From positions 62,519,708 through 62,583,707 of the forward strand of contig NC_092860.1 of NCBI RefSeq assembly GCF_032062135.1: a stretch of DNA of 64,000 nucleotides, written 5' to 3'. The translations under genes were made by a program, and so were the position numbers. The first letter of the stretch is position 1; every line of letters starts with the position of its first letter. This DNA is from Pyxicephalus adspersus (lineage: Eukaryota > Chordata > Amphibia > Anura > Pyxicephalidae). Under the pieces are notes generated by a model, which made no database searches, had not been told where the DNA came from, and saw nothing but the letters and a program-made list of their open reading frames with translations. This document shows, one piece after another, positions 2,669 through 59,500 of the stretch.

Positions 2669-3536
2669 CTAGTAAGAGAAAGGTTTAGATTAAAATACTA
2701 CTGCTTTTTTTGTTGAAATACATGTACCTATTTTTGTGAAAATTCAATAAAAATATTGAAATATAAAATACTACTGCATGCATCAGACTTACAAGAAGGT
2801 TTTGATATTACTCCCTTTTTTTCAGATACATAGAACGCATGGTCATTCCTATACTTGGCACTCAGCTGGTAAACTTTAGCAGAGAAAGAACTCCGTATAC
2901 ACAGAAACAAGGTTTTTAAACTATGAATGTACATTACAGTATGAGCTGATTCACACAAAGTTATTCATTATACACGTTTTCCTGGAGATGCTGGTTTGGG
3001 TTCTCCTGCTGTAATCAATCTAGGCTTAGTAGGTCGTTGTAGTTTTTTAACTTTGCAGAGCAAGAAGGATAGGGGGTTAGGGTGCTGGATGTCCAGTAGC
3101 TACATAATTTATAATCGGGAGTGGAAAGTGTTTTAGGTCAAGTCTCGGCTAAGCTCTCTCCAATCATCTTTATCTGTCGCTCCTCTACTAATCTTGAGAT
3201 TATCTATCTGTGGAAGTGGACTTAACACCCACTGCTTGCCTTCAGCTTCTCAGTTTCGGTTAGGGTAGCCCCACGTTGACAGTCCCATAGTACAAGGACA
3301 ATTATGAGATTCTGTCCTTTAGAATCCTAATTCTTGACTTCAGACAGACCTCAAGGCTGACAAGGCCCTGGCTAGGCCACAAAAGTTCCTCTAGTCACAA
3401 AATGTGACTAGTAGAGGGATCTCCTTCCCTCTAGAAATTTCCTTTACCTGAGACTAGTCACTCCTTCCACTATAGAGAAAACAGATGGTAGTTAATTTGT
3501 CTAATGTCTAAATTTACCAATTACTGCCAACGTCAC
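2669..3536. other. ADGRL3 intron, splice-acceptor side
   Basis: Holds the polypyrimidine tract and acceptor of the GAIN exon (minus strand, about 2669-2700). The remainder, including a weak 12-base direct repeat (aaatactactgc near 2692 and 2767), shows no gene or recognised repeat. Confidence 0.6.
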
Positions 3537-4127
3537 CTAACCTCCCTAGCGGTCTAATTTCCTCACAAGTTCCATGCAAAAAGTGGTACAATGTTTTGCA
3601 TGGAAATTTATTTTCCATTGTAGGCTGTAATTCTTCAGCATAACTCACTGATATTTAATACATTTAATATTAAACGATAAATACCAAAGAACAAAAATCT
3701 TTAAAAAAAACATATTTAAACATAATGTAACTGTATAGTAGCATATATAACATATAATTATATATATATTATATGAATTTTTCTTTGTATTGGACTCAAT
3801 ACAGCTATTTTGTATTGATTCCAATACAAAATTATTTTAATTTTCCCGTCGATCCTCCCGCCTGCACTAACGCATGTACTGGCGTCACTAGGAAACCCTG
3901 TAGATCTCGTCTCTGCACTTTGCGGCTGGAGATCGGAGGAAAAGGACGTGTCCAAAGGACCTGCGGGGACCAGCAGGACGCCGGGGGACAGCGACAGAAG
4001 AAGGTAAGTGGGTTTTTTTTTTAGTTCAAAGCGACCCTAAGTGTGACTCGGGATTACAGCTTTTTGCAAGTAAATTTCACCCCGAGTGATACTCGAGATT
4101 ACCGCTGGGGGGTTAACCGCTGGGGGG
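3537..4127. mobile_element. Palindromic-ended DNA element, family A, copy 1
   Basis: Begins taacctccctagcggt and ends accgctggggggttaa, so the ends are inverted repeats with TTAA-like outer bases. The interior contains tccatgcaaaaagtgg, a stretch of AT repeats, a hairpin of tattggactcaatac-type words, and a GC-rich section (about 3845-4005). A shorter inverted copy lies at 17896-18262 and a partial one at 47870-48106. There is no coding capacity. TTAA ends suggest a piggyBac-type origin, but that is only a guess. Confidence 0.7.
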
Positions 4128-4458
4128 TTAATTTTCAGTACCAAAAGCGGTAACCCCAAGCCACACTCGAGGTGGAATTGCCAGGGAGTTTTTAAAGCTT
4201 ACCTGGTAGGAGGTGCTTGCAGCCTCCTCCAGTGAAGCCTGGCATCTTCTTCCCCTGGTGATGCCGGCCGGGCATCTGCGTCCCTGGCTTTTGAACTTTG
4301 GGGATGCGAGGCCAGGGGAAGCAGATGCTATCCAGCCATCTTGCGTGCGAGCATGGCTGGGAGGTGGGACCAGGTAGAAAATTTAAAATATTAGGTATTT
4401 TTAAATGTACCGCTTTTACATTTAAAAATACTTATTATTCATACTGCCAGGGAGATTA
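4128..4458. mobile_element. DNA element, family B
   Basis: Abuts family A. It starts around ttaattttcagtaccaaaag followed by cggtaaccccaagccacactc, and ends around catactgccagggagattaaa. The phrase gtaaccccaagccacactc recurs at about 37401, marking a second partial copy. Noncoding, with a GC-rich middle. Confidence 0.55.
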
Positions 4459-4466
4459 AAGAAACA

Positions 4467-4729
4467 TATATTGCAATGAACTTTTTTTTGTATTTGGGGC
4501 TTTTAAGGCAGTGCATATAAGACAATATATAAGTAACATTTTATTTATAACATTTATTATTTATTAATAACATTAATTATTGTAACATGGAGGCTCCTTT
4601 ATTAGACTGTTTTGTGCACATGCTTTTTTTAAACAAAGATGTTATTAATAAAATGTTACTTATATATTGTCTCCTATGCACTGCCTTAAAAGTTCCAAAT
4701 ACAAAAAAAAAAAAACTCTTTGCAATATA
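4467..4729. mobile_element. Long foldback element
   Basis: Arms of roughly 85-90 bases (about 4467-4553 and 4638-4729) are near-perfect reverse complements. Tatattgcaatgaac, gcagtgcatataagac and aatatataagtaacatttta on the left reappear complemented on the right. The loop is about 85 bases. No coding content. Confidence 0.85.
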
Positions 4730-5001
4730 CACTACCTCCTCTATTTACAAGAGAATCGTCCAGGCATCAGGAGGAAGCAACCAATCATCAGGCAAGGAGC
4801 ATTCCCAGAAAAAAATAACACATTAGTCTCTGATATACAGACTAGGGATGAGCGAAAATGGCTCTGACAGTCTTGCGGAAATTTCCCCGAACTTCTGATG
4901 GGTCTGCCAAATTTTGACAAACCGATTTCACGAATTCCATTGAAGTTCAGGGTGCAGGTTCCCACAGTCCCTGGGCTGTTACAGCCCAGTGAGCGTGGAA
5001 C

Positions 5002-5057
5002 CTGCAGTCACAGCTGATTGGAGGCACGTGGTTGCCTCCAATCAGCTGTGACTGCAG
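5002..5057. repeat. Perfect 25-bp palindrome
   Basis: Bases 5002-5026 are exactly the reverse complement of 5033-5057, separated by six bases. It sits near the left end of the hAT-like block and could form a stable hairpin or cruciform. Confidence 0.95.
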
Positions 5058-5099
5058 GCGAGTTCATCTGAGTTCCATTCCCACGGTCACTGGGCTGTA

Positions 5100-5135
5100 C
5101 TTATTGATAACATTGGTAACTGGCATCTACATGCA
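5100..5135. repeat. Isolated piece of the hAT internal satellite
   Basis: The phrase acattggtaactggcatcta matches the satellite words that resume after 6010. The CR1 fragment therefore inserted inside the satellite field rather than beside it. Confidence 0.7.
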
Positions 5136-6006
5136 TGTCTCATACTGTCTAGGGGGAATACATTTGGGGAAGTCAGAAATGGAAAAGGATCTGGGGGTTC
5201 TGGTAGATCATAGACTTAATAACAGCATCCAATGCCAAGCTGCAATATCTAAAGCTAGTAAAGTACTTTCTTGTATTAAAAGAGGAACAGACTGCAGAAA
5301 TGAACACATTATCCTGCCCCTGTACAAAGCATTGGTCAGACCACATCTGGAATATGCAGTCCAGTTTTGGGCACCAAATCACAAAAATGACATTGTCGAA
5401 TTGGAGAGAGTGCAGAGAACGGCACTTAAATTAACAAAAGGAATGGAGGAGCTCAGCTATGAGGAGAGATTAGCTGAACTGAATCTATTCTCCCTTGAGA
5501 AGAGACATTTAAGGGGGGATATGATCACCCTGTATAAATATATAAACAGTCCATATAGAGAACTCTCTTCCCCATTATTCACTTTGAGATCATTACAAAG
5601 AACAAGAGGGCACTCTGCGTCAGGAGGAAAAGAAATTTAAGCTCCGGATAAGGAAGGGATCCACTGTAAGGTGAAAATGTGGAATCGGCTACCTTAGGAA
5701 GTAGTTTCAGCAACTACTATAGACTGCTTTAGGAAAATGCTGGATGTTTTTCTAGAAGCACAGAATATAACTGGGTATAAAGGCTTTAAAGTAAAAATAA
5801 CTGACTGTTGATCCAGGGAACATCCGATTGCCTCATGGAATCAGGAAGGAATTTTTTTTTCCCTGTTAAAGCAAATTGTAGCAGGGTTTTTTTTTGCTTT
5901 CCTCTGGACCAACTATGTCTAATAGGGTTTTATATCTGAGATATGTTTATTTCCCTTGTAGTTGAACTTGATGGACCTCTGTCTTTTTTCAACCTAACCT
6001 ACTATG
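5136..6006 (+). mobile_element. CR1-type LINE, 5'-truncated, 3' end
   Basis: The open part (5136-5640) encodes the C-terminal region of a CR1-clade reverse transcriptase. It includes EKDLGVLVDHRLNNS, LPLYKALVRPHLEYAVQFWA, ELERVQRTALK and SYEERLAELNLFSLEKRHLR, which I recognise as typical of the family end. A 3' untranslated tail follows to about 6006 and ends ttcaacctaacctactatg. The same tail recurs at 43380-43697. The endonuclease and catalytic RT core are absent, as expected for a 5'-truncated insertion. It lies inside the hAT satellite field and is dead. Confidence 0.9.
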
Positions 6007-9884: not shown

Positions 9885-11000
9885 TTTATCATTTGTGGAT
9901 ATAAAGCAAGTGCTATCACAGTTAAAATTCTGTATTTCTTTTAGATAAATACATACATTTTTAGATGTTTTAGGATAGATACCAAGTGCTATCAGAATTA
10001 AATATCTGTATTTTTTGGAGAGAAATACATACATTTTTATGGCTTTGGGCATATATAGCAAAGTGGGATCACAATAAAATATCTGTATTTTATGTAGAGA
10101 AATATAGAATTTTTTACGTCCTTTTTTGATAGATACCAGGTGCTATCAGAATTAGATATCTGTATTGTTTGGAGAGAAATACATACATTTTTTATGGCTT
10201 TGGGGATAAATAGCAAAGTGGGATTAGAATTAAATATCTGTATTTTATGTAGAGAGAAATATAGAATTTTTTCTGGTTTTTGGATAGATACGAAGTGCTA
10301 TCAGAGTTAAATATCTATATTTTTTGGGGAGAAATACAGAAATTTTTATGGCTTTGGGCATATATAGCAAAGTGGGATCAGAATAAAATATCTGTATTTT
10401 TTAGAGAAATTCCAAAATTTTTTGGGTTTTAGGATAGATACCAAATTCTATCATAATTAAATATCTGTATTTTTATCGATAAATGCAGAAATTTGTATGG
10501 ATTTTGTGATAGATTGCAAGAGGTGTCTTAAATTATGATACCTCTGGCAATCTATCACAAAAGCCAGAAAAAAATTCTATATTTATCCATAAAAAATACA
10601 GATATTTAATTCTGATAGCACTTGCTATCTATCAAAAAAGCCATAAAAATGTCTGTATTTCTCTCCAAAAAATACAGATATTTAATTATGATACCTCTTA
10701 CAATCTATCACAAAACCCAGAAAAATTTCTGTATTTATCTATAAAACATACAGATATTTCATTCTGATTCCACTTGCTATATATAAAAAAAAACCATAAA
10801 AATTTCTGTATTTCTCTACAAAAAATACAGATCTTTAATTCTGATACCTTTTCCAAACTGTCACAAAAGCCAGAAAAATTTCTGTATTTCTGTAAAAAAA
10901 AATACAGATATTTAATTCTAATACCACTTGCTATCTATCCAAATGGACAGAAAACATTCTGTATTTCTCTTCAAAAAATACAAAAATTTTATTATGATTT
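9885..11000. repeat. Palindromic satellite array, ~70-bp unit
   Basis: Units of about 70-75 bases containing atagataccaagtgctatca, aatatctgtattttttggag and aaatttttatggctttgg run in one direction to about 10520. They then run in the opposite direction (tccaaaaaatacagatattt and so on) to about 11000. The turning point is an inverted repeat, ttttgtgatagattgc ... gcaatctatcacaaaa, near 10527. It resembles an expanded subterminal repeat region of the hAT element. Confidence 0.9.
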
Positions 11001-11245: not shown

Positions 11246-14200
11246 TTACTCTGCAGAGGAGGTGCTGAAGTCATTGCCGATCCAAGCCTTATTCATTTTA
11301 ATAAAAGTGATTAGGTCGACATTTTCTGCGGAGAGCGGAATCCGCTTGTCACTCACTACGCCCTCAGCTGCACTGAACGCTCTTTCAGATAACACACTTG
11401 TGGCTGGGCAGGCAAGGATCTGAATGGCATGTTCTGCCAGCTCTGGCCACTGCTCAAGCTTGGATAACCAGCAGCCCAGTGGGTCCTGACTTTGCAGATT
11501 GCGAATGTCCCATGTAGAGCTCAGGTATTCCTGCACCAAGCCTGCATAGTTTGGCTTAGACGACCTCTACTGCTGCTGCCACCCATGCCACTTAAGTAGT
11601 TGTTTAGCTCCTATGGCTGGTGGAACTGCCATAGGGATCCCTGCTGCTGCTGGCAGCGGGAAAAGCTGAACACAAGTCCCTTACAAGCTCAGGCTTGTAA
11701 CATGCATCTAGTAATGTAGCAATCCAATAGTCGTCAGTCTTTGTTTTTATGTGTTGTATGCGCGAATCTTTGGCTATGCACTCCTGCATGAATGCTGTGG
11801 TGTGGCTCAAACTTCCCACAGCTGAGGTAATTCTGGACCCACACTCCTGTGGGTCGAACAGCAGCACAGGGTCACCCTCCTCCTCCGCCTGGTCTTGCCA
11901 TACACGGAACATGCCGTCTTGTGTTTGGGTGGATGGATGCCATGTACCCTCAAAATCCTCCTCTGCCCCTTCCTCCCCTTCTCCCATGCCTGCAATGTCC
12001 TCCTCATCCTCTTCCACCTCCTCCTCTTCCTGGATTTGTGCACGCATGTCCGAGATGATGTTTTATCATCATGATCATCCTGGTCCCCTCTTCAAAAGGT
12101 GACAATACATTGCACAAGTCCTCAATTTGCAGCCACTCCACAGGGCTGAAGAAAGGTAGTGTAGGTGTACGTCTGAAACGAACAGACTCTGCCAAGTAAT
12201 CCACCACCGCTTTCTGTTGTTCAGCCAGTCACTGCAGCATGTAAACGGTGGAATTCCAAGAGTGGCCACATCACAAATTAACCGGTGCACTGGCCGATTG
12301 AGATTTCGCTGTATATCCACCAATCTGGCACTGGCTGTGTACGAATGGCGAAAATGAGCTGACAACTTTGTGGCCTTCAGCAACAGCGGCTGGAGATCTG
12401 GGTAGTTCCTAAGGAAGCGCTGTACTATCAGGTTCATGGCGTGAGCCAGGTAAGGTACGTGTGTGAGTTTCCCACAACGCAGGGCTGCCAGCAGATTAGC
12501 CCTGTTGTCACACACGACCTTCTGGATTCTGGACCCACACTCCTGTGGATTGAACAGCAGCACAGGGTCGTCCTCCTCTGCCTGGTCTTGCCATACATGG
12601 AACATGTCGCCTTGTGTTTGGGTGGAAGGATGCCCTGTACCCTCAATATCCTCCTCTGCCCCTTCCTCCTCCTCTTCCTGGATTTGTGGTGCTCTATGTC
12701 TAGTAGGCACGCATGTCCGAGATAATGTTTGAAACGTCATCTCTTGATGCAGCGTCCGCTCTGTGTTGTGTCTGAGATCCACCATCATCTGTTCCAGCAG
12801 GCATATGATGCGGATGGTGTCACTGACACAGGCTTGATCCCTGCTGATCATCCTGGTCGCCTCTTCAAAAGGTGACAATACATCGCACAAGTTCTCAATT
12901 TGCAGCCACTCTGCAGGGCTGAAGAAAGGTAGTGTAGGTATACGTCTGAAACGAACAGTCTCTGCCACGTAATCCACCACCGCTTTCTGTTGTTCAGCCA
13001 GCCACTGCAGCATGTAAACGATGGAATTTCAAGAGTGGCCATATCACAAATTAACTGGTGGACTGGCAGATTGAGGTTTCGCTGTAGATCCACCAATCTG
13101 GCACTGGCTGTGTACGACTGGCGGAAATGCGCTGACAACTTTCTGGCCTTCAGCAACAGCGGCTGGGGGTCTGGGTAATTCCTAAGGAAGCGCTGTACGA
13201 TCAGGTTCATGACGTGAGCCAGGCAAGGTACGTGTGTGAGTTTCCCACAACGCAGGGCTGCCAGCAGATTAGCCCTGTTGTCACACACGACCTTGCCTGC
13301 CTAGAGTCTGTTGGGAGTTGGCCATAAGTACTCCTGCTCCCGCAGGGCACTTCGTATGGTTGCGCCCGTGTGGCTGAGGGAACCCAGGCTTCGCAACCTC
13401 AGGATTGCATGGCAGCATCTGAATTGTGCACCGAAATAGCAAACTGCAGGTTGTTGCTGGTGGTGAACAGATGCTGCTGAATAGGAGGTGCTGGGTCTCC
13501 ACAGCAAAGTGTTCCTGGAGGAAGAGGTTGAGGCACAAGAGTCAAAGGCGATTGCATGGCAATGTGCTCTGGGCAGAGGTAGGTATGCAGGCCTTGCTGC
13601 AGCTGCATCTTCCCCTGCTGCCACCAAAGTTACCCAGTGAGCTGTATAGGAAATATATCTTCCCACTCCATGCTTGCTCGACCAACTGTCGCTTGTCAGG
13701 TGCACCTTGCCAGAAACTGAGTGCTGCAGGGCCATGAACACATTGCTCTGCACGTGTTCATGCAAAGCAGGAACACATTTTACTGTCAAATACTGTCACT
13801 TGGGCATAACGCACTCTGGGTTCGCTCAGAGGAATGTGTAACGGAATGCATTGGAGTCCACCAGCTGAGGTAGGGAGGAGCTCTAACGCAATCAGCTGTG
13901 CAATTGCCGCAGTAATTAGCTTTGTTTTGGGGTCATTTGGGCCATATTTCCTCTTGCGCTCCAGCATCTGGGGGATGGAAGGTTGGATGCTGCTAATGCT
14001 AACCACAGAAAGATTGAACGATGGGGTAGAAGGTGTGGGGTATGGCACTGATGCTTGGTCTCGACTGCTAGCAATGCGATCTGCGTTGGAGCTCCTGCTC
14101 ACTTATGACGGAGCCTGAAAAAGGTAATGCTCGGCTACATGCCCCACTCAAATTGCTGGCAGCAGCACGGGTAACTTTGGTGGCAGAAGGAGGAAAGGCA

Positions 14201-15403: not shown

Positions 15404-15456
<53 letters not shown>

Positions 15457-15466
15457 CATCTATCTA
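15404..15466. repeat. (CTAT)n microsatellite
   Basis: About fifteen tetranucleotide units with one interruption (tatccatc near 15455). Confidence 0.98.
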
Positions 15467-15834: not shown

Positions 15835-15879
15835 TTAGAGACCATGCTAACTGCCTGGTTGATTTCATTTGTCATCATG

Positions 15880-17507
15880 CGTAGAAATTGCCTTAATGAT
15901 CCAGACAGTTTCTGTTATGGGTTTGGTTTATTCACAACGAAAGCACAATGTCGCTAAACTACCACAGAATTTAAAAAGATATAAAAATTATATTTCGGCT
16001 GTCCACTTGGTGACCAGGATAAATCTTGGACTTCACATGTCATCTGTACCAGTTGTTCCAACAGACTGTGTGACTGGCTAAATTGGCGTAAAGCAGCAAT
16101 GCCATTTGCAATCCCGATGGTGTGGAGAGAACCGCAAGACCATCCAATCAACTGCTATTTTTGCCACGTCAACAAAAGTAGATTATCAGGTAAAACTAAG
16201 CACAACATTGTATATCCCAGCCTCGATTTTGCAATTAGACCTGTTCCCCATGATGATTTATTGCCAGTTCCAGTACGGCCACATGATGGACTTGCTACTG
16301 TAGAAGGTGATGAGGAATGCACATTGAGGAATGCAAATCATCTGATCCTGACTACTTGGTCGATGTAGATTCAGAATCAGAGACCTTTACACAAGCAGAG
16401 CTGAATTATCTTGTTCGCGATCTAAATCTCTCCAAAGACAACACAACAGAACTTCTTGCTTCAAGGCTTAAACAGAAGCACTTGCTTGCACAGGGGGTAA
16501 CTGTAACTCACTACAGAAAACAAAATCCTAACTTGACAACGTTCTTCACTAGTGATTGCTCACTGTGCTACTGTCATGATATAAATGCACTCTTTAACAG
16601 TTTGTCACAAAAGCATCTTCCATCTGAATGGTATATCTTCAAATTCCAAACCAAGTTTACCGATTACCCAATGCGTGAACCTAAAGGAGTCCTATGACAA
16701 CATGAAGTTACTACTTGAAGCAATCCAGTATAAAACACACCAGTGGAACATCTGTGGGGATCTAAAGGTCATTGGCTTGCTGATGGGAATGCAAAGAGGA
16801 TTCACACAATATTGCTGTTTCCTATGCCTGTGGGACAGCCGATCTATGGGAGACCATTATGTCAAGCGTGATTGGCTACCAAGAAATACCTAAAAGCCCG
16901 GAACAAGCAGTGTCAAGTTTCTGCCTCTGGTTGACCTGCATAAAATATTTCTGCCACCTCTCAATATCAAGTTACGCTTGATGAAGGATCTTGTAAAGGC
17001 CATGGGTAAATCAAACTCCATGGGTTTTCAGTACCTTGTTTAGAAGTTTTCAAACATAAGCACTGCAAAAATGAAGGAAGGGATATTTATAGGGCCACAG
17101 ATCAAGTCTGTGTTTGAAATCATCATCCTGCAAAAATCTCTCTCAGCAGCTGAGCTAGAAGCTTGGGATGCATTCAAGTGGCTGTGAGAAAACTTCTTGG
17201 GCAACCATAAGTCTCTTGCAATCAAGGCAGCAGTTCATCATCTGCTTGATTTGTACCAGAAACTGGGTTGTCGCACGTCAATAAAAAATACATTTCTTGC
17301 ACTCACATCTGGAATTCTTTCCGGAAAATCTTGGTATGGTGAGTGATGAACAAGGAGAATGTTTGTTTTTACCAGGACATTCAGTTAATTGAGCAACGCT
17401 ACCAAGGTTTCTGGAATGAAAGTATGATTGCTGACTACTGCTGGATGCTGTACCGCGACAATCCAGACAAAGAGTACACAAGAAAATCATACTCTAAGCA
17501 TTTCTAA
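15880..17507 (+). pseudogene. Decayed intronless copy of an unnamed Cys/His-rich family
   Basis: I recognise this as a member of a family of roughly 500-residue uncharacterised proteins that I recall as recurring in arthropod, cnidarian and some vertebrate genomes. Order on the plus strand: RNCLNDPDSFCY (15880), GDQDKSWTSHVICTSC (about 16010-16060), IPMVWREPQDHPINCYFCH (about 16110-16165), YPSLDFAIRPVPHDDLLPVP, then about 16317 onward ELNYLVRDLNL, WNICGDLKVIGLLMGMQ and FLCLWDSRSMG, IFLPPLNIKLRLMKDLVKAM (about 16945), a GPQI block, WDAF, FLGNH, SDEQGECFHQD (about 17343) and YQGFW, ending at 17507. At least four frameshifts or stops break it. In the first CxxC the second Cys has become Phe (CYGFG). 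It has no introns and sits directly beside the hAT terminus. Function unknown; see findings. Confidence 0.8.
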
Positions 17508-17895
17508 AGAAACATTGGTACCTCACTGACACTGTTTAGTAGATCTATACCACAGTGTGCCTTATTTTACTTCACACTGAAGATGTATTGACATTCACTT
17601 CAATGTCACTTACATTTTAGTACAAAATATATGCACGTAAATGTATTTTAACTATAATAGTACTCATAACTCAGGAACTGTACGTGTTAGGGAAAAACTG
17701 AAAACGGATCTGAAATATGGTAGAAAAACTGATTTAGAAAAGTTTTCTGTGGTTTCTGATAATTCTCAAAACTAATTTTTTGTTGACCCGTGTAATTGAT
17801 TCCAAGAATATTTTGAGACAAATATTTTTTCCTGCTTAGCTCCCACATTTCAATACTTTCCCAAGAAGTAATACTCACGATACCAATACCACAAT
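17508..17895. other. Flank of the unnamed-family copy
   Basis: AT-rich sequence, possibly its 3' untranslated region. No terminal repeats or poly-A tract that would define the copy's edge could be seen. Confidence 0.4.
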
Positions 17896-22552: not shown

Positions 22553-25545
22553 TCATGTATTGGCCACCTTCCTGCCAGTGCCCCGAAAAGAAGATGTTAG
22601 ATCCTCAATTCGATGGATCTCATTGACTCTACCAAGCCATGAGCCAATTGTGGGTGGATCAAGGTTTCGCCAGTAGGCGGCTATACAAGAAATAGTGGCC
22701 ATAATAAGGTGTCTGATGACCGAGCCTTTACATGCTTTCCGTGAAAATGAAATGTGTTGTCGAAGGAAAAAAGCCGGGTCATCAGGGATATCCTGGTCCG
22801 ACATTTGTTGAACAATGGACTGAACAGTGACCCAGAAATTTCAAAGACTCAAATCAGTATCCCAAGATCTAAGAAAGCTAGGTGTATAGTCGGGGGGTGG
22901 GATTTGTAGAAGCCTATAAACAACAGATAGAGTGTGTCTAATACCACCCACCCCCATGCATAGGTGCTCGAAAGAAGTAAGGGGTCTGCAATAGGATAGG
23001 GCCGAACGGAGAGTAGACAAAAAGTGGGTGATCTGCAAAGTTTTCCAGACATCTAGTTGAAACTCACCCGTAGCCTCTCTTAACTCCTCCGGGCTGATCC
23101 ATCTGCTTGATCTAACAAAGTGTAATGCTCTACAAACACCAGAAGAGAGCAATTCTTTCAACCTCCCGTCCTCCAACCCAGGGTGAAAGACGGGTTGCCC
23201 AGGACCAGAAAGAGAGGCGACGGGGAAAGCGAGAGGTGTAAACGGTGGAAATTTTGTACGGTCGATTCCCATGTATATCCCACCGTAGGGTGAGATTTAA
23301 GTCCTGGGAAAGCCGATACCGGCAGCCATGGAAGGAGGCTTAGAGGTGTTGGGCAAAAACATTGTTCCAGTGATATCCACTGTTTAAAACCTCCATTTCG
23401 GCACCAATCCAGTACCCGTGTCAGGTGAGCTGACAGATAGTAATTAAACAGGTTTGGGATTCCCAGACCCCCTTCTAATTTAGGCCAAGTAGAGATCTGC
23501 AAAGTTTTGGAGCTTTATTTCGCCAGATATAGCGAAAAAGTTTGAAGGTGAGGATTCTAAAAAAGGACCCAGGAATTTTAATGGGCAACGTTTGAAAAAG
23601 ATATAAAAATCGAGGGAGAATGTTCATTTTGATGACATTGATGTGTCCCAGCCATGACAAAGTCAGTTTATCCCATTTTTCTAAGTCACAATTCACTGTG
23701 GAGAGCAATCTGAAATCAGTCCATTGCCCATGGGCTCAGAGTAAATGGCCCTTATCCATGAAAGCATTCGGGGGCCTAAACCTATGCGTAGTAAGGTTTG
23801 ATCCATGTAAAGCCAATCTATCCGGTCAAAAGCTTTTTCAGTGTCCGTGGACAATAACATTAGCGGGATATGTTTAGATGTGGCGTAGTATATCCAATTC
23901 AGTACTCTGGTCGTGTCTCTGGCTTCCCTACCGGGCATGAAACCAACCTGATCAAAATGGACAAGATTATGCATGACCTTGATCAATCTAGAAGCAAGAA
24001 TTTTTGTGAAAAGCTTGAGGTCTTGATTAGGGAGGGAGATGGGTCGGTAACTTGCACACGAAGAGGGGTGTTTACCCTCTTTGGGTATGACAGTGATGGT
24101 GGCCCGTAAGGAGTCTAGAGAGAACCGACCACCTTCAGTAATATGATTATATGCTGCTAGAAAATGAGAAGCCAAAGGAGCCTGAAAAGTTTTGTAGTAT
24201 GATAAAGGTAACCCATCTGGCCCAGGGGTTTTACCGATGGGGGTGTCTCTTATGGCTGCACTATGTTCCTCCGCTGAGATAGGAGCCTCCAGTAACTCCC
24301 TCTTGGACAAAGAAAGAGAAGGCATCCCACACTCCAAAAGATATTTTTGGCTTGCCCATAACCTCTCTCCCGTCACTGAGGGGGAAGATGGTTTTGAGAT
24401 GTTATATAATGTAGAGTAGTATCGGCGAAAGGACTCCGCTATGTCTTTAGTATGGTAAACTTTTCGTCCACAGTTGTCCGTGAGAATAGGGATAAACAAG
24501 CGAGTTTTTTGTACACGGAGAGCATTGGCTAATATACAGCCACTTTTGTTGCCGTGTTCGTAAAACATCCTCTTGCATTTAGCAAGGGCAAATTTAGCCC
24601 TGTCAAGGCAGAGTAGTGAAAGTTTCTCACGGAGAACTTGGAGTTCCTTACCTATTGTAGGATCTAGGGAAGATTTATGAGAAGATTTCAGGATTGCAAT
24701 GCGGTTCAGAGTGTCCCCTATCTCCCTCTGACGTTCCCTTTGAGTCTCGTCCCATGTTTGATAAATATACCTCGTATTACTGCTTTGTGAGCCTCCCAAA
24801 GTAAAAGGGGGTTGGTCCAAGGAGTAGCATTGGCCTGAAAGTAATAAGATAGGCTGTGTCCTGGAGGAGGGATTCATTTAAGCTCCAGTTCCAGGATTTG
24901 GGGCAGTGATAAGATAATTCGATAGAAATGGATACCGGGGCATGATCTGATAAAGTTAATGAGCCAATGGAACAGGACTGTACCCTGTGTAACTCAGATG
25001 AGCTATGGGGGGAAAAAAAGAATGTGTACATTTCTATCGTGGGGATGTAAAACGCACCATATATTGAGGAGCCTATGTTGAGATGGGACTTTCATGATTC
25101 GACCATTGTTACGAGGTGGAGAATGATTGGGACCGAGGTGTCTACCGTCCAATCTGGTGTGAAATTAAATTCTCCTCCCAAGATGAAGATACCTTCTTGA
25201 AATTTTTCTAGTTTCTCAAGGGTCTCAGTTAAAAATAAGGCCTGTCCAGTATTAGGAAGGTATATGGATGCTAGAGTGACTTTAGAGCCTTCTAGGTTCC
25301 CTTTAAAAAAGAGGAATCTGCCTTACTGGCAGCTCAGTTGGTTCTTAAAATGTAACAGAGGAGGCTACCAAAATACTAACTCCCTTGGACTTAGATGAAT
25401 CAGTGCAGCTATGATAGACTATCGGGTATCTCTTGTTACCTAACCTCGGAATCATGTCAGTGGGAAAGTGAGTTTCCTGTATGAAAGCTATTTGTGTTTT
25501 TAACCTGTGTAGTTCTGCCAGTATTGTGGAGCTGCACATCTGGTC
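22553..25545 (-). pseudogene. LINE ORF2 (endonuclease and reverse transcriptase), inactive
   Basis: Endonuclease blocks: HRLKTQIAFIQETHF (about 25500), GIFILGGEFNF (about 25190) and SDHAPVSISI (about 24950). Reverse transcriptase: TPGPDGLPLSYYKTF (about 24220), YRPISLPNQDLKLFTKILASR (about 24030), DQVGFMPGREARDTTRVLN and STDTEKAFDRIDW (about 23850). After YSEPMG (about 23725) the sequence jumps to CDLEKWDKLTLSWLGHINV (about 23690). The RQGCPLSP and FADD blocks are deleted, so the catalytic Asp pair is missing. Upstream, the NVxGLN strand that begins the endonuclease is also absent, and the GDFN-type motif reads GEFN. The C-terminal third is split by frameshifts. Clearly dead. Confidence 0.93.
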
Positions 25546-44340: not shown

Positions 44341-44840
44341 AACTTGATACGATACTATACAATATGAAGCTGCATCGATGCTATGGAATGTTTCCTGGTA
44401 CTTGAGTGTTGTCTGATAACACTGCACAACAACGATTTTGCTACTGGGAATAACACATGTGATTTACATGATATCGAGTGTGCCGATTCCAAATTTGAAC
44501 TCAGAATTTGCCCATCACATACAGATTTTAAGTTATAGGCATGCTATAGCTGTTCAAATGGCTGGTAATTGGGTAATGTATTTTTACATAGGAACATTAT
44601 AACAGTTGAAGCTACCACTATGCCTGCTGCCGCCTCAGCTGAATCATGTCCCCTGGTGGCATGCATGTTCCAGCCGCGGCTGACCATGTCTGGCCAAGTC
44701 AGTGACCTGATGTAAGAAATAGGTATATATGGCAAGATGGACCAAGGGCTTGTCTCTAGTGAGAAACTATCTTTTTGGATAGTACAGTTAGGCTATAGTG
44801 AGTCTGTTTTAAGCTAAAGGTGAGTAGGCACAGCTGTGTT
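44341..44840. other. Intronic or LINE-derived sequence, nothing recognised
   Basis: Part may be the 5' end of the LINE ORF1 fragment. The last ~100 bases precede the second copy of the unnamed family and could be its 5' flank. Confidence 0.4.
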
Positions 44841-45099
44841 AATAAACCGGACAATTTTTGCTACATTTGTGGCAAATATACCCCATGTGATCAACGCAAG
44901 AACCTAACCAAGTGGGTGGCATTGGCTTATAAGTATTACTTTGGATGTGAAATTCCAGTTCAGGATTAAAGCTGGGCACCTCATATCTTCTGTCTGGTTT
45001 GTTACGTTGGCCTAACATAATGGTTGAGCCAAAAAATCATCACTTAGACTGCTACTTCTGTATGAGTAAAATTGCTGGGTTTTCAAAGAAGACTAAGTA
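44841..45099 (+). pseudogene. Second copy of the unnamed family, N-terminal fragment
   Basis: Reads NKPDNFCYICGKYTPC, DQRKNLTKWVALAYKYYFGC, VQD (stop) SWAPHIFCLVCY and, after a small deletion, VEPKNHHLDCYFCMSKIAGF. The order and Cys spacing match the first ~130 residues of 15880-17507, and the CYIC pair is intact here. The two copies are well diverged from each other. Nothing of the remaining ~370 residues is found downstream. One in-frame stop and at least one deletion. Confidence 0.82.
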
Positions 45100-45859
45100 A
45101 CTTAAGATCCTAACGCCCTAGGCAGAATCGGACTTCAGATTTGGATTCAGCGTACTTGATCCAGTAAATGACACATAGATTAGACCAAGTAAGTTTTTTG
45201 GGATGCAGTATAATCTAGTTTCCATTGTATCTGTATGTGCAGATTAAAGTAGTACCTTTAATATCAGTGTGAGCTATCTACTGCTTCAGTTCTCCACTTC
45301 TTTATGTATGGCTGCTTCAATCTTTGCAGCCCAAGCTTCCATATCTACCTTTGTGGGCATTTATTTCCAGAGAGACCTAATCTTATCTACTGAACCCTCT
45401 AGCTAAAGAGATTGTGAGGGGTTACTCTGAGACTCAGCGTCATGCTCAACACTACAGGGGAGGTAGAACTATTGCTTGTGTGTTCTAGAGACTGTCAAAG
45501 ACCATCTTACCTGAGGCTTTCAGCGGCGCAATAACAAGCTCAGCATTGGGTTCTCTATCTGTAGCCACCAGCAGGAAGCAGCTACCTAGATCGGATGCCC
45601 CAGACTGGTCAGGTATTCAGGATGCTTTTTGAGAACCAGACATCGGTAGTCGGTTTCACACATGGAAGCTGGTAAGCACTATAACGTACCGCCTATGACC
45701 TGAAGCTTCAAACTCTGCAGCTACTAGCCACCATGCTCGGCCACAAATATTCCTAACTTGCCTACTAAAACATGTACAGGTATCCCCTGATTCATAATTT
45801 TGCACAGTCACTGGTTACAGTCACTGGAGGCAAATTTGACCAAGATACATACATCCATA
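45100..45859. other. Intron or LINE remnant, nothing firm
   Basis: No open frame. The right part may belong to the LINE fragment that follows. Confidence 0.4.
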
Positions 45860-51069: not shown

Positions 51070-54000
51070 ATGATGGGGCTTCGTATCCTATCTATTAACG
51101 CTAAAGGGCTAAATAGCCCCTTTAAAAGACATGCTATTTGGGATGAAGCTAAGAGACATGATTCCAACATTTTATGTATCCAGGAGACACACTTTAAGAC
51201 GGATAATTTACCATACTTCTTCCATAAGGATTTTCCTCATATTTTTCATGTTACATCTGCGCAGAAGAAAAAGGGAGTGACTATTGCAGTAAGATCCAAC
51301 ATATCTTTTTCTCTCATAAAAGTGGATATGGATTTAGAGGGACGTTATATAATTTTGGTGGCCAAATTTAACAATATAATTAGAACATTGGTATCTTTAT
51401 ATGCCCCAAATGTCTACTTATTGAAATTTTTGTCTAAAATGATTAAAAGAAAATCCAGAAAGGTTCAGTTATAATCTGTGGAGACTTAACCTGTATTCCT
51501 GATATTTCACTGGATACTTCCAATCGCAAAAAGTTCACAAGACCAACATTGAATTTCCTACTACGAAAGGAGGATCTTTATGATGTCTGGCAATGTCTCC
51601 ACTCATCTGAGAAAGATTTTATTTTTTTCTCGGCTCCTCATTAGTCTTACTCGAGAACTGATTTGTTCTTGGTGGATAAATGGACTTTACAGCAAGTGAC
51701 ATCTTCTTCTATTCACAATATAACTTGGTCTGACCATGCACCTGTGTCTATTTGTATTAATGAAAACAATAAGACCCCTAGTTCTTATCTTTGGAGGAAC
51801 ATTGTGTCCTTACTTGCACATACTTCCACGATTAGTAAGATTTTAGATAAGCTGAAAGAATTTTTTCAATTTAATGAGTCACCGGAAGTGACTCCCTCTG
51901 TTTTTTGGTGTGCTCATAAGGCTTTTGCTAGAGGTATTTTAATCCAGCGATTGAGAGTAAAAACAGAGGGCAGCTTATCAGTGAATTGTTAGCGAAAATT
52001 GGGGAGTTAGAGAATATTCATAAAAGTAAAATCACAATCCCTATTTCTCAACAACTGTTTAGATATAGACAGGAATTCCGTTTAATGCTTTTTGAAAAAC
52101 AAGAAAGAGTTTTTCAACGCACAAGAACTATCTATTATGCACAAGGTAATAGAGCAGGTAAACTATTAGCATCTAAACTCAAAGCTAAACGACTAAGATA
52201 TACGTTACCCTTTTTATACCATCATAAGTCTAAAGCTCAGTTGTCTAATCCTTTAAACATGGCAAATGCGTTTAGAGATTATTACCAAGAACTGTAAAAC
52301 CTCAAAGAGGATAGACAGATCCACCAACCTACTCAAAAGTTGGTCCATGGTGACCAAGTGGGTTTTGTTAAGGGGCGTCAGGCCTCTGATGCGACTCGCC
52401 GTATAATTAGTCTACTTAAAATTGCTAAAAGCTCAGGAGAACCGACTATATTCCTCACGCTCGATGCAGAGAAAGCTTTCGATAAAGTGCATTGGGGATA
52501 CTTACATACAGTGTTGCAAAAATTTGGTCTGAAAGGTAAAATTCTGTCAGCTGTCATGGCTCTGTATACTTACCCTTCGGCTCAAGTATATTTATCGAAT
52601 ATGTTGTCCTCCCCTTTTAATATTACCAATGGAACTCGTCAAGGTTGCCCTCTGTCACCTGCTCTCTTTACACTGATTATGGAACCCTTTGCACAAGCTA
52701 TTAGAGATAACAAAAATATCAAAAGAATACAAATAGGTGAGTCTTCACATGTTGTGGGTTTGTTTACTGATGATGTGATTTTGTCATTAATGGATCCACA
52801 GACTTCAATGGCAACCGTATTATCTGTAGTTGGAGTATTTGGATATGTTAGCTATTACAAGATTAATGATTCAAAATGTAGTATTTTACCGATAGGTGTA
52901 TCCTCAGAATTAAAAGATCAAATCTCTAGGGAGTTTCCCTTTCAATGGTCAAAAGATAGTATTTTATACTTAGGTATCCGTTTCACCAGCTCTGTGTCTT
53001 CCTTGGTTATCTGTAATTTTACATCACTGGTAGATGTGGTTAAGAAAGAAATTGATATTCTTTCAAAAGTGGAATTATTCTGGTTGGGACGTATTGCGGC
53101 CTTTAAAATGGTAGTTCTTCCAAAAGTTCTCTATTTATTTTGAACTATACCTATTATTCTTCCCCAATCTCTCTTACTTTCTTTACAATCTTTGATACAA
53201 AAATTTATATGGCAGAATAAGAAACCTTGTCTCTCGCAATCACTTGTATATCGAGCAAAGAAGGTGGGTGGAATGGGGGTACCCTATCTAATAGATTATT
53301 ATTTGGCGTCATTGATGGACCATTTGGAGCTTTGTATAAAACCGGAGATAAATAAAAGATGGCTGGATATTGAAAGAATGTATATACCTACAGGTAACTA
53401 TTTGGCTTTTTTAATGGCTAACTTATGTTCAATAATTAGATCACATTTGAACTTACCCCCAATAGAGGCTATGGTATTTATCTGGAAGAAACTTCAAAGT
53501 AAAAAATGTATAGATACGGAATCAGTATCAATCCCAGTTCCGTTGCAATTTTTTGAGCTTCTTATACCAAATTACCGACTTTTCATACCTTTCGTAATAA
53601 TTATAAAATATTTCAGATGAATCATTTACGAGCATCACTTTCCGAAAAGGAAATTACTGTACCAGTAGCTTTTTGGAAAAGATGTAAAAATATCAATCTT
53701 TGCAAAGGAGACATCTCTGTATATTATAATTTAATCCAAAATAAAGGCTCCTGGAGGAGACTTTATGTTTTCTCTATTTGGAAGCAGGATTTACAACGTT
53801 CTTTCCCACTCTCCCAATGGAAAACGGCAATTTGCTCTAGCTCCATGGCATCTAAATGTATCTCCCATTGGGAAAACTACCAAAAGATTTTATGTCGATG
53901 GTATAGAACACCATATAGACTTTCTAAGTATGTACCACAATATTCGCCTCAGTGTTGGAGGAAGTGTGGTGAATTGGGCACTTATGTACATATGGTTTGG

Positions 54001-56156: not shown

Positions 56157-56590
56157 TGTTGCGGCTCCACAAGGTAAGGTGGTGGACCCACTCTGTCACC
56201 CACCCTGTGGGTGGAGACGTGCATGGGGCGCAGGGTCTAAGGAGTAGCTTGGTCCTCTCCAGAGCCTCTAGTGGTGAGGATGTTGAGCGGCAAGCTACTG
56301 CCAGGTTGGGGCCCCGTGCCCGCCAAGGGAGGTGACTGCCAACAAGCAGGGACTGAAGCGTAGTACTAAAGGAAAATCCAGGAGGATAGTCAGACAAGCC
56401 AAAAGGTCAGGATGTTGGCCAGCAGAGGGAGCGCGTCTGTGGAATACTCTGGTTCACTGAGGCAAGAAAGCAGCTGACAGAGAACCACTTGACTTGGAGC
56501 AGGAAGTAAACAGAGTATTGGATCCAGAGGCAGAGATGGGGCTGGCAGCAGGGGGCTGCAAGGAAGGAAAGCAAGAAGGAGGCACAGATG
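56157..56590 (-). repeat. 3' LTR of the Gypsy element (family A)
   Basis: Matches 47174-47843 and 39452-40195 over both flanks (agagcctctagtggtgagga, gccccgtgcccgccaagg, ggcagcagggggctgc). An internal deletion falls between aaaaggtcagg and atgttggccagcag near 56410. Confidence 0.85.
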
Positions 56591-56599
56591 ACCTGGACC

Positions 56600-59500
56600 C
56601 CTGGGTTTGTTGGGAAAGCTGGCATGGAATTTTTTAAGTAGGCGGGGCACATGGAGGTCTTTTAGAGTGAACCAGGAGCGTTCCTCTGGGCCATAGCCCT
56701 TCCAATGGACCAGGTATTGTAGACAACCTCGGACAAGCCTGGAATCCAAGATTTGTTCAACCTCGTACTCCTCCTTTGAGGAAGCAGAAACAGGACCCAG
56801 TGGAATGTATTCCTCAGAAAGAACAACGGGTTTAAGCAGGGAAACATGAAATGCGTTATGGATCCTAAGGGATGGCGGCAGATTCAACTTGTAAGTGACA
56901 GGGTTGACCTGGGACAAGAGGGGGAACGGACCGATGAAGCGAGGTGCAAACATGAGAGAAGGCACTCGCAAGCGAATATGCTTGGTGGAAAGCCAAACCT
57001 TGTGTCACGGTCCCTTCCGTGACTGAAGTTAGAAGATCTGTGAGACAAGCTGCACGTGAGGTTATCTGACTGTCTCTTTGTTTTTACTTGTTTCTGTGTT
57101 GTTGTTTGTAATGACCACACCCCTTGTATCAGCTGCAGCTGATGGTCATTACTGCTCCTCCATTGAGTCTGGCCTCACACTTCATGCTATGCAGTTGATA
57201 TTCACTTCTGGGATGTGAAGAGCTGGTGTGTTGTCCTCTCCAGAGTACCTGCTTCTCTATTTTGCTATTAAGATAAGTTGAACTACTTTTGTTTTTTTGT
57301 TGTTCTTTGGTTGTTACTAGGCCCTAGGAGACACTGGTTCTTTCATCAGGGAAGGAACCAGTAGTCTCAAGCCCAGTCACTACTCCTAGGGCTATGCAGG
57401 GCTACTAGGGCCTAGGTTCCCATGTATGAGTATTCCCACCATCAGGGGATATTCATACTGTCAGGAGTTAGGGGTAGGTTAGGGTGTCTTTAAGGGGATG
57501 ACAATTCCCTTTTCCATAGCCATTGGAGGCCTAGTCCCTTGTATTTACCTTTCTGTTTCCCTCCCCTCCCTGTTATCTGTGACACCCTGTCACCGGACAG
57601 CTGGGGAGCAGGAGCTCTCTTCTTGTCAGCCATTTTTTGTAGCGTGCCGAGGAATGTAGCAAGGCCTCTTGGCCTTTTTTCCAAACTTGCTGGAGGTGGT
57701 CAGTGGCAGCGACAGCAGCAGGAAAGTTTGACATGAAAGGGACAGGAGCAGAAATCTGATGATGAAGACTGGAAACAATAAAAAAAGGGACAACCCTGTG
57801 GAATCGCCGATGTGATTGTTGTGGGCAAGATCGGCCCATGGCAGGAGTTCCGACAATTTATCCTGCTGGGAGTTGGTATACATACGTAATTATTGTTCCA
57901 GCACCTGATTAATCCTTTCAGTTTGCCAATTGGTCTGAGGGGGATAGGCAGAAGAGAAGTCTAACTGGATCTTTAGCTGACGACAAAGGGCTCTCCAGAA
58001 GCGGGAAGTGAATTGTACTCTGTGATCGGACACTATGTGGGAGGGTGGGCCATGTAGGCGAATAATTTCTTTGAAGAAGATCTACGGCAAGGTCGATGCA
58101 GATGGGAGACCTGATAAAGGAACAAAATGGGCCATTTTGGAGAAGCGATCAACCACAACCCAAATAGCAGTGGAACCATTACAAGATAGAAGGTCGGTGA
58201 CAAAGTCCATGGAGATATGTGACCAGGGTTGTTCCGGAGTGGTAAGCTTATGTCGGGAACATTCGGTACATGTGGCCACAAAGTCCCTCACATCTTGTTT
58301 CAGATCCGGCCACCAGTATCTAAGGCTGATCAGATCAAAGGTCTTCCGTTTTTCCATGATGCCCAGCAAACTTAGAGGCATGCCCCCATCGAAGGACCAG
58401 TGGACGCTGATTTTTTCAAACAAGGGTCTTCCCTGGTGGGATTTGAAGCAGCTGGACTGGGGCCGTGGGCACAATTTGAGCTGGATCTATAATGAAGGCT
58501 GGTTCCACTTCAGGATTTTCCCTCTCCAAAGAACGAGAAATGGCATCTGCCTTTACATTTTTGGGCCCGGACGATAAGTGAGAACAAAATTGAATCTTAA
58601 GAAAAACAGAGCTTGACTGGGGTTCAAACTGTGCAGTCCAAAGATATTATAGGTTCTTATGGTCCTGTAAAAATGGTCACAGGTAGGAGAGCTCCCTCCA
58701 GCAAATGGCGCCATTCTTCAAGGGCAAGCTTGATCGCAAGAAGCTACCTATTTCCGATGGCATAATTTTTCTCAGCTGGAGAGAATTTCTTAGAAAAGAA
58801 CCCACAGGTCCTTAACTTGCCAGAAGTGTTCCTCTGGGACAGCACAGCACCAACGCCAACCAAGGAGGCAACCACCTCATAAAAGGCTGAGAAGAGTCTG
58901 GGCGCACCAACGCAGGGGCAGAGGCAAAGGCTTCCTTTAACAATTTAAAGGCCTAGAGAGCCTTGGAAGACCAAGATGAATTGTCTGTAATAGTTGGCGA
59001 AGCCCAGGAACCTCTGGATGGGCGTTAGCCCAAGGGGTTGTGGCCAGTCTAAAACGGCAGTGAGTTTGGCAGGGTCCATCCGCAAACCTTCAGCAGGGAC
59101 AATGTAGCCCAGGAACAGAACTTCAGGGCACTCAAAAAGAAAATTCTCCGCCTTGGCGTACAGTCTGTTTTGCCGAAGCCGTTGTAGGACTATTTTGACA
59201 TGGTCTTGATGAGTAAAGATCCCTAGAGTACACCAGGATATCATCTAAATAGACAATCACAAAATCATATAACAAGTCCTGAAAGATGTAAAGTCTTGGA
59301 ATACCGCAGGGGCATTGAAGGCTGTCTTCCATTCGTCACCCTTGCAGATGCAAATCAAATTGTAGGCATCCCACAAATCGAGTTTAGTGAAGACAGATGC
59401 TTGGAGATGATCAAATAATTCAGAGATCAGAGGCAAGGGGTATTTATTCTTAACGGTGATGTTGTTGAGTCCCCGATAGTCAAGGGCGTAGAGATCCATC

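Follow-up and report, generated by a model that had tools for sequence, protein, structure and literature searches.

Chapaev3 is a group of cut-and-paste DNA transposons which, in the passages of PMC4079192 drawn on here, includes Merrow, Garfield and Conan and has insects, fish, a lizard and a tenrec among its hosts. The same passages give C(2)C, LH and H(4)H as motifs of the transposase, CAC and GTG as the Chapaev termini and, for all Chapaev3 examined by the authors, a TWA target duplication lying between A and T; they also describe Garfield_BM as an element of 2,289 bp with a transposase of 556 amino acids (aa), the Merrow and Garfield genes as consisting of two exons, and a bracovirus relative. 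Chapaev3 is placed in the Transib superfamily with RAG1 in the relevant part of PMC4411706, a wider group sharing C(2)C and H(3-4)H is listed in a section of PMC12730594, and the duplications of RAG and Transib are 5 bp long according to an excerpt of PMC7204232. The locus considered here lies in a stretch of 64,000 nucleotides from the frog Pyxicephalus adspersus (contig NC_092860.1, positions 62,519,708 to 62,583,707; hereafter the window), in which an earlier note had pointed out a decayed Cys/His-rich frame, perhaps of an undescribed transposase. It is very probably an inactive copy of a cut-and-paste DNA transposon of Chapaev3 type, in the CMC (CACTA-Mirage-Chapaev) group, since the protein length, the C(2)C, LH and H(4)H motifs, the CAC...GTG ends and the A-TWA-T target all match the description in those passages of PMC4079192. 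This kind of element is already published as Chapaev3, and the word "undescribed" finds no support, as the tested hallmarks agree with that description except for one ATA duplication.

The genome (1.44 Gb, 8082 contigs) was searched at the DNA level, and scoring of 40 of 1597 candidates gave at least 54 match rows on at least 10 contigs (C1-C6, C9, C12, C14 and C5104), from which the 20 best rows, the window's own included, were taken with their flanks. The shared bodies are 81.7-90.5% identical in pairwise comparison (median 85.8%, for the 164 of 190 pairs that align over more than 1400 bases), megablast of the flanks of different loci gave no match longer than 200 bp, and stops are found in the aligned pieces of all 20 copies (1 to 16 each, L015 being two copies). 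The copies seen thus represent separate insertions of an old family, all of them decayed. The sequence could also be the pseudogene of a host gene or of a single-copy domesticated one, given the length of the frame, its conserved zinc motifs and the relatives that several animals carry as hypothetical or uncharacterised genes, but this origin is hardly credible given the number of dispersed copies, their dissimilar flanks, the stops in each of them, and the shared ends and target duplications described below; copy number and insertion hallmarks rule it out at the window locus.

Comparing the copies and flanks for termini and duplications, as the earlier note had proposed, revealed a common left end, CACAGGTCAACATGTCATTT, and a common right end closing with GTTGACCTGTG, both located by fuzzy search in 12 of the 20 copies. 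The left end begins with CAC in 13 copies and the right end (at up to 5 edits) closes with GTG in 12, while that of L028 closes with GTC and the remaining ends are mutated or were not found. Target duplications were scored in nine copies, L015, L019 and L024 being left out for having one end at 6-7 edits. In every one of these nine, the triplets flanking the left and right ends agree, and the duplication is preceded by A and followed by T; it is TAA in seven copies, TTA in L018 and ATA in L021, hence TWA in eight. Other lengths from 1 to 8 agree in at most one copy, and 5 bp in none, while triplets shifted outward as a control agree in 6800 of 345744 cases (2.0%). The nine copies measure 2046-2210 bp, and their ends form inverted repeats over 12 bp.

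Two of the omitted loci have an unusual layout. L015 holds two element copies in the same orientation within 8.7 kb (oriented positions 1094-2826 and 3299-5291), which share a left flank ending ...attaacatgatca. On the right side of L024 (oriented position ~5400), the best right-end match, AAATGACATGTTGACCTGTG, is the reverse complement of the usual left terminus and is followed by TAAT; an inverted second end or a composite copy is possible.

In the window, the frame that had been described as decayed is indeed matched end to end by P0130, an open 556-aa frame from Eleutherodactylus coqui, in five pieces, three forward frames and with five in-frame stops (tblastn, lowest E 4e-105), and the start (15877-15879) and stop (17505-17507) codons were checked in the letters. 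By comparison, 20 shuffled versions of P0130 gave no E below 0.031 against the whole window. A profile of 118 relatives recovers the same pieces, with E down to 1.5e-99, and in the remaining window finds nothing besides a second N-terminal copy (44829-45124, E 1.1e-21 and 6.6e-7), other places having E 0.75 or worse. Of the motifs previously named, CYFC, MVWREP, ICGDLK, FLCLWDSR and SDEQGE are present in the translation, whereas the supposed CYxC reads CYGF, the second Cys being gone, and FHQD reads FYQD in a frame other than that of SDEQGE. The LH motif has decayed to LN (PPLNIKL). The segment around the first catalytic Asp (WRLFIDSSK.. in relatives) is uncovered in this copy (L009), while D256 is covered in the 19 others. 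Homology with these 19 copies starts at 15835 for 11 of them and slightly further in for the others, with a shared right end. A search for the missing left part elsewhere in the window gave short matches only, none convincing, the best (35 bp, E 6e-5) lying inverted within the element's own right part. Having lost its left end, the first-Asp segment and an intact reading frame, the window copy is inactive and unable to move by itself. Its left edge adjoins the position of a T-rich ...TTTTTTTAAGG tract in other copies, which had suggested a spliced retrocopy, a reading that the presence of the right terminal repeat led us to drop. The features are collected in Table 1.

Table 1. Element remnant, its transposase features and a second family copy in the window.
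Feature	Position	Strand	Basis or remark
Element remnant	15835..17792	+	left ~190 bp, including left terminal repeat, missing
Decayed transposase frame	15877..17507	+	tblastn with P0130; ATG and TAA checked
N-terminal zinc-binding domain and linker	15877..16329	+	profile positions 1-151, E 4.7e-50
Gap at first catalytic Asp (D256) segment	16636..16642	+	profile 257-270 uncovered; pieces end 16640/start 16636
Second catalytic Asp codon, ICGDLK (D310 of P0130)	16759..16761	+	kept in 118/118 relatives
C(2)C motif, CFLC	16816..16827	+	C329 in 117/118, C332 in 118/118 relatives
LH site, here LN	16960..16965	+	LH in 118/118 relatives
H(4)H motif, HFLHSH	17291..17308	+	H487 and H492 in 118/118 relatives
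Likely catalytic Glu codon, SDEQGE (E506 of P0130)	17348..17350	+	kept in 118/118 relatives
Right terminal repeat TGTTGACCCGTG, then TAAT	17781..17792	+	shared right end
Second family copy, decayed N-terminal part only	44820..45139	+	tblastn, ~46% identical to P0130

Relatives with an open frame encode ~556 aa, and at least 2791 relatives were found at E <= 0.001 among 7988 candidates. They are labelled hypothetical or uncharacterised in their source annotations, and the source names include Oopsacas, Plakobranchus, Araneus, Oratosquilla, Sitophilus, Pyrocoelia, Uroleucon, Mythimna, Eumeta, Electrophorus and Eleutherodactylus, which we take to be a sponge, a mollusc, a spider, a crustacean, insects, a fish and a frog. 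In the 118 top-scoring relatives, which were aligned, the D-D-E set is conserved (D256 in 117, D310 and E506 in all), as are the zinc motifs and L377 and H378 of the LH motif, each position in 117 or 118 of the sequences. Together with a core predicted to be RNase-H-like, this bears out the proposed D-D-E transposase with a CxxC. Its acidic residues had been assigned less accurately: the Asp of GD is by position the second catalytic one, whereas that of WD, although kept in 114 of the 118, falls outside the triad, and the best Glu is E506 of SDE and not that of QGE (kept in 117). The first Asp could not be seen by the earlier reader because its segment is uncovered in the window copy. One relative, P0234 (Uroleucon formosanum, 700 aa), is a predicted protein in which the transposase, with N in place of D256, is fused to the retroelement domain PRE_C2HC (PF07530); the fusion may stem from a faulty gene model.

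The predicted fold closely resembles RAG1 and HzTransib in structural comparison, with the identity to Transib and RAG1/RAG-like transposases amounting to 11-14% in the structural alignments. Such a RAG1/Transib-type fold, in conjunction with ends starting in CAC, is what a Transib element might show. The duplications are however 3 bp long in all nine copies and 5 bp in none, compared with 5 bp for RAG and Transib in the excerpt of PMC7204232, which excludes Transib proper for these copies and leaves a Transib identity extremely improbable. What the earlier note had regarded as damaging to its reading, namely single-copy and syntenic loci or the lack of an RNase-H-like fold, is not what we observed, as the copies are dispersed and the core is predicted to be of that type.

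Several points weigh against the assignment to Chapaev3. Membership rests on hallmarks, the comparison with named Chapaev3 proteins having been made by description and not by alignment; one of the nine duplications is ATA and not TWA; and the 12-bp terminal repeats are exact in three of the nine copies, the other six having one or two mismatches. The three copies left out for a badly matched end have differing flanking triplets, the conservation counts are favoured by the choice of the 118 relatives as top-scoring matches, and a sequence search of the PDB with A1 and A2 gave three chance matches each and no RAG1 or Transib at E <= 10 (A3 had no match). The family could be a separate, unnamed lineage of the wider group (CMC with Transib, Plavaka, ESTA and Lanisha) that shares the ends and duplication of Chapaev3. 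The comparison by description and the ATA triplet would allow this, as would the profile searches, in which no Pfam model passed the cut-off for three window pieces and 16 relatives, nor any NCBIfam model for four relatives. A PHROGs scan of the same four relatives gave nothing better than E 0.13. We nevertheless consider such a lineage unlikely, as protein length, motifs, termini and target all fit Chapaev3 as described in the passages of PMC4079192.

Beyond the copies, ends, duplications, conserved residues and predicted fold of the element, a course of transposition can be proposed by analogy with RAG1 and Transib. The N-terminal part and the helical region would bind the element ends, the former also helping to form a dimer; the core would nick beside CAC and then produce a hairpin and a double-strand break, and the ends would be joined to an A-TWA-T target.

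The family has a conserved Cys-rich N-terminal domain, whose predicted fold in the intact relative P0130 (residues 1-140) may be ZAD-like. The zf-AD model (PF07776) stayed below the Pfam cut-off (13.3 bits against 28 for the first member; best E 0.063, 3 of 15 members), BIR scored as well as zf-AD, and RAG1_imp_bd reached E 0.085 in 2 of 15 members. Of three ZADs, only that of M1BP aligns across the domain with a score that none of 60 Cys-keeping shuffles attained, whereas the other two were equalled by 58 and 42 of 60, and A3 against an alignment of the three sequences had a probability of 0.6%. Because of these shuffle, probability and BIR results, the domain was not assigned to ZAD. Parts of PMC4411706 state that Chapaev3 carries an N-terminal zinc domain, Chapa, and that the Chapaev N-terminal domain reportedly survives in RAG1 under this name. 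The passages on ZAD consulted in the literature contain none deriving it from a transposase, and in one of them the THAP domain, likened to the P element DNA-binding domain, is mentioned beside a ZAD in two fly proteins; a literature search gave no paper naming ZAD and RAG1 together in connection with zinc and transposase domains.

Scanning of viral contigs with P0006 and A1 gave 20 and 143 pattern-matching stretches, respectively, and no confirmed relative, and a search of predicted viral structures gave nothing at E <= 0.001, which means that a bracovirus relative such as PMC4079192 reports was not recovered. Literature matches to the string CACAGGTCAA were unrelated by title among the matches listed.

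The window contains further repeats. A CTAT microsatellite of ~16 units (15404-15466) lies just upstream of the element remnant. Two neighbouring tandem arrays (9892-10519 and 10531-10998) have ~77-bp units in 153-154 bp doublets; one consensus unit, once reverse-complemented, agrees with the other at 59 of 77 positions, so that together the arrays look like a head-to-head palindrome of satellite-like repeats. On the minus strand, 11604-13795 holds open pieces of 150-317 aa in overlapping duplicates, presumably of a decayed hAT/ZBED transposase by their motifs; three of them had no Pfam match at E <= 0.01. Reverse-transcriptase fragments at 23693-24877 (-; RVT_1, E 2.4e-15) and 52298-53143 (+; E 1.7e-27) are LINE-like (long interspersed nuclear element) by their neighbouring frames, and 56390-57004 (-) is an integrase C-terminal and chromodomain piece (SH3_Tf2-1, E 4.5e-17; Chromo, E 2.2e-11) as in Ty3-type retrotransposons.

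The practical gain lies in an annotation gap, as the results give a name to a family still hypothetical or uncharacterised in public protein sets of various animals, and a Chapaev3 profile would rename many records, judging from the number of relatives. With the ZAD of insect transcription factors, the likeness is confined to the N-terminal domain; were it homology, these factors would be linked with relatives of RAG1. From Transib and RAG the element differs in its shorter duplication, while it shares with Chapaev3 the CAC...GTG ends, the 3-bp, mostly TWA duplication between A and T, a 556-aa transposase (P0130 and Garfield_BM) with C(2)C, LH and H(4)H, and a broad spread among animals, and departs from it in a single ATA duplication among nine.
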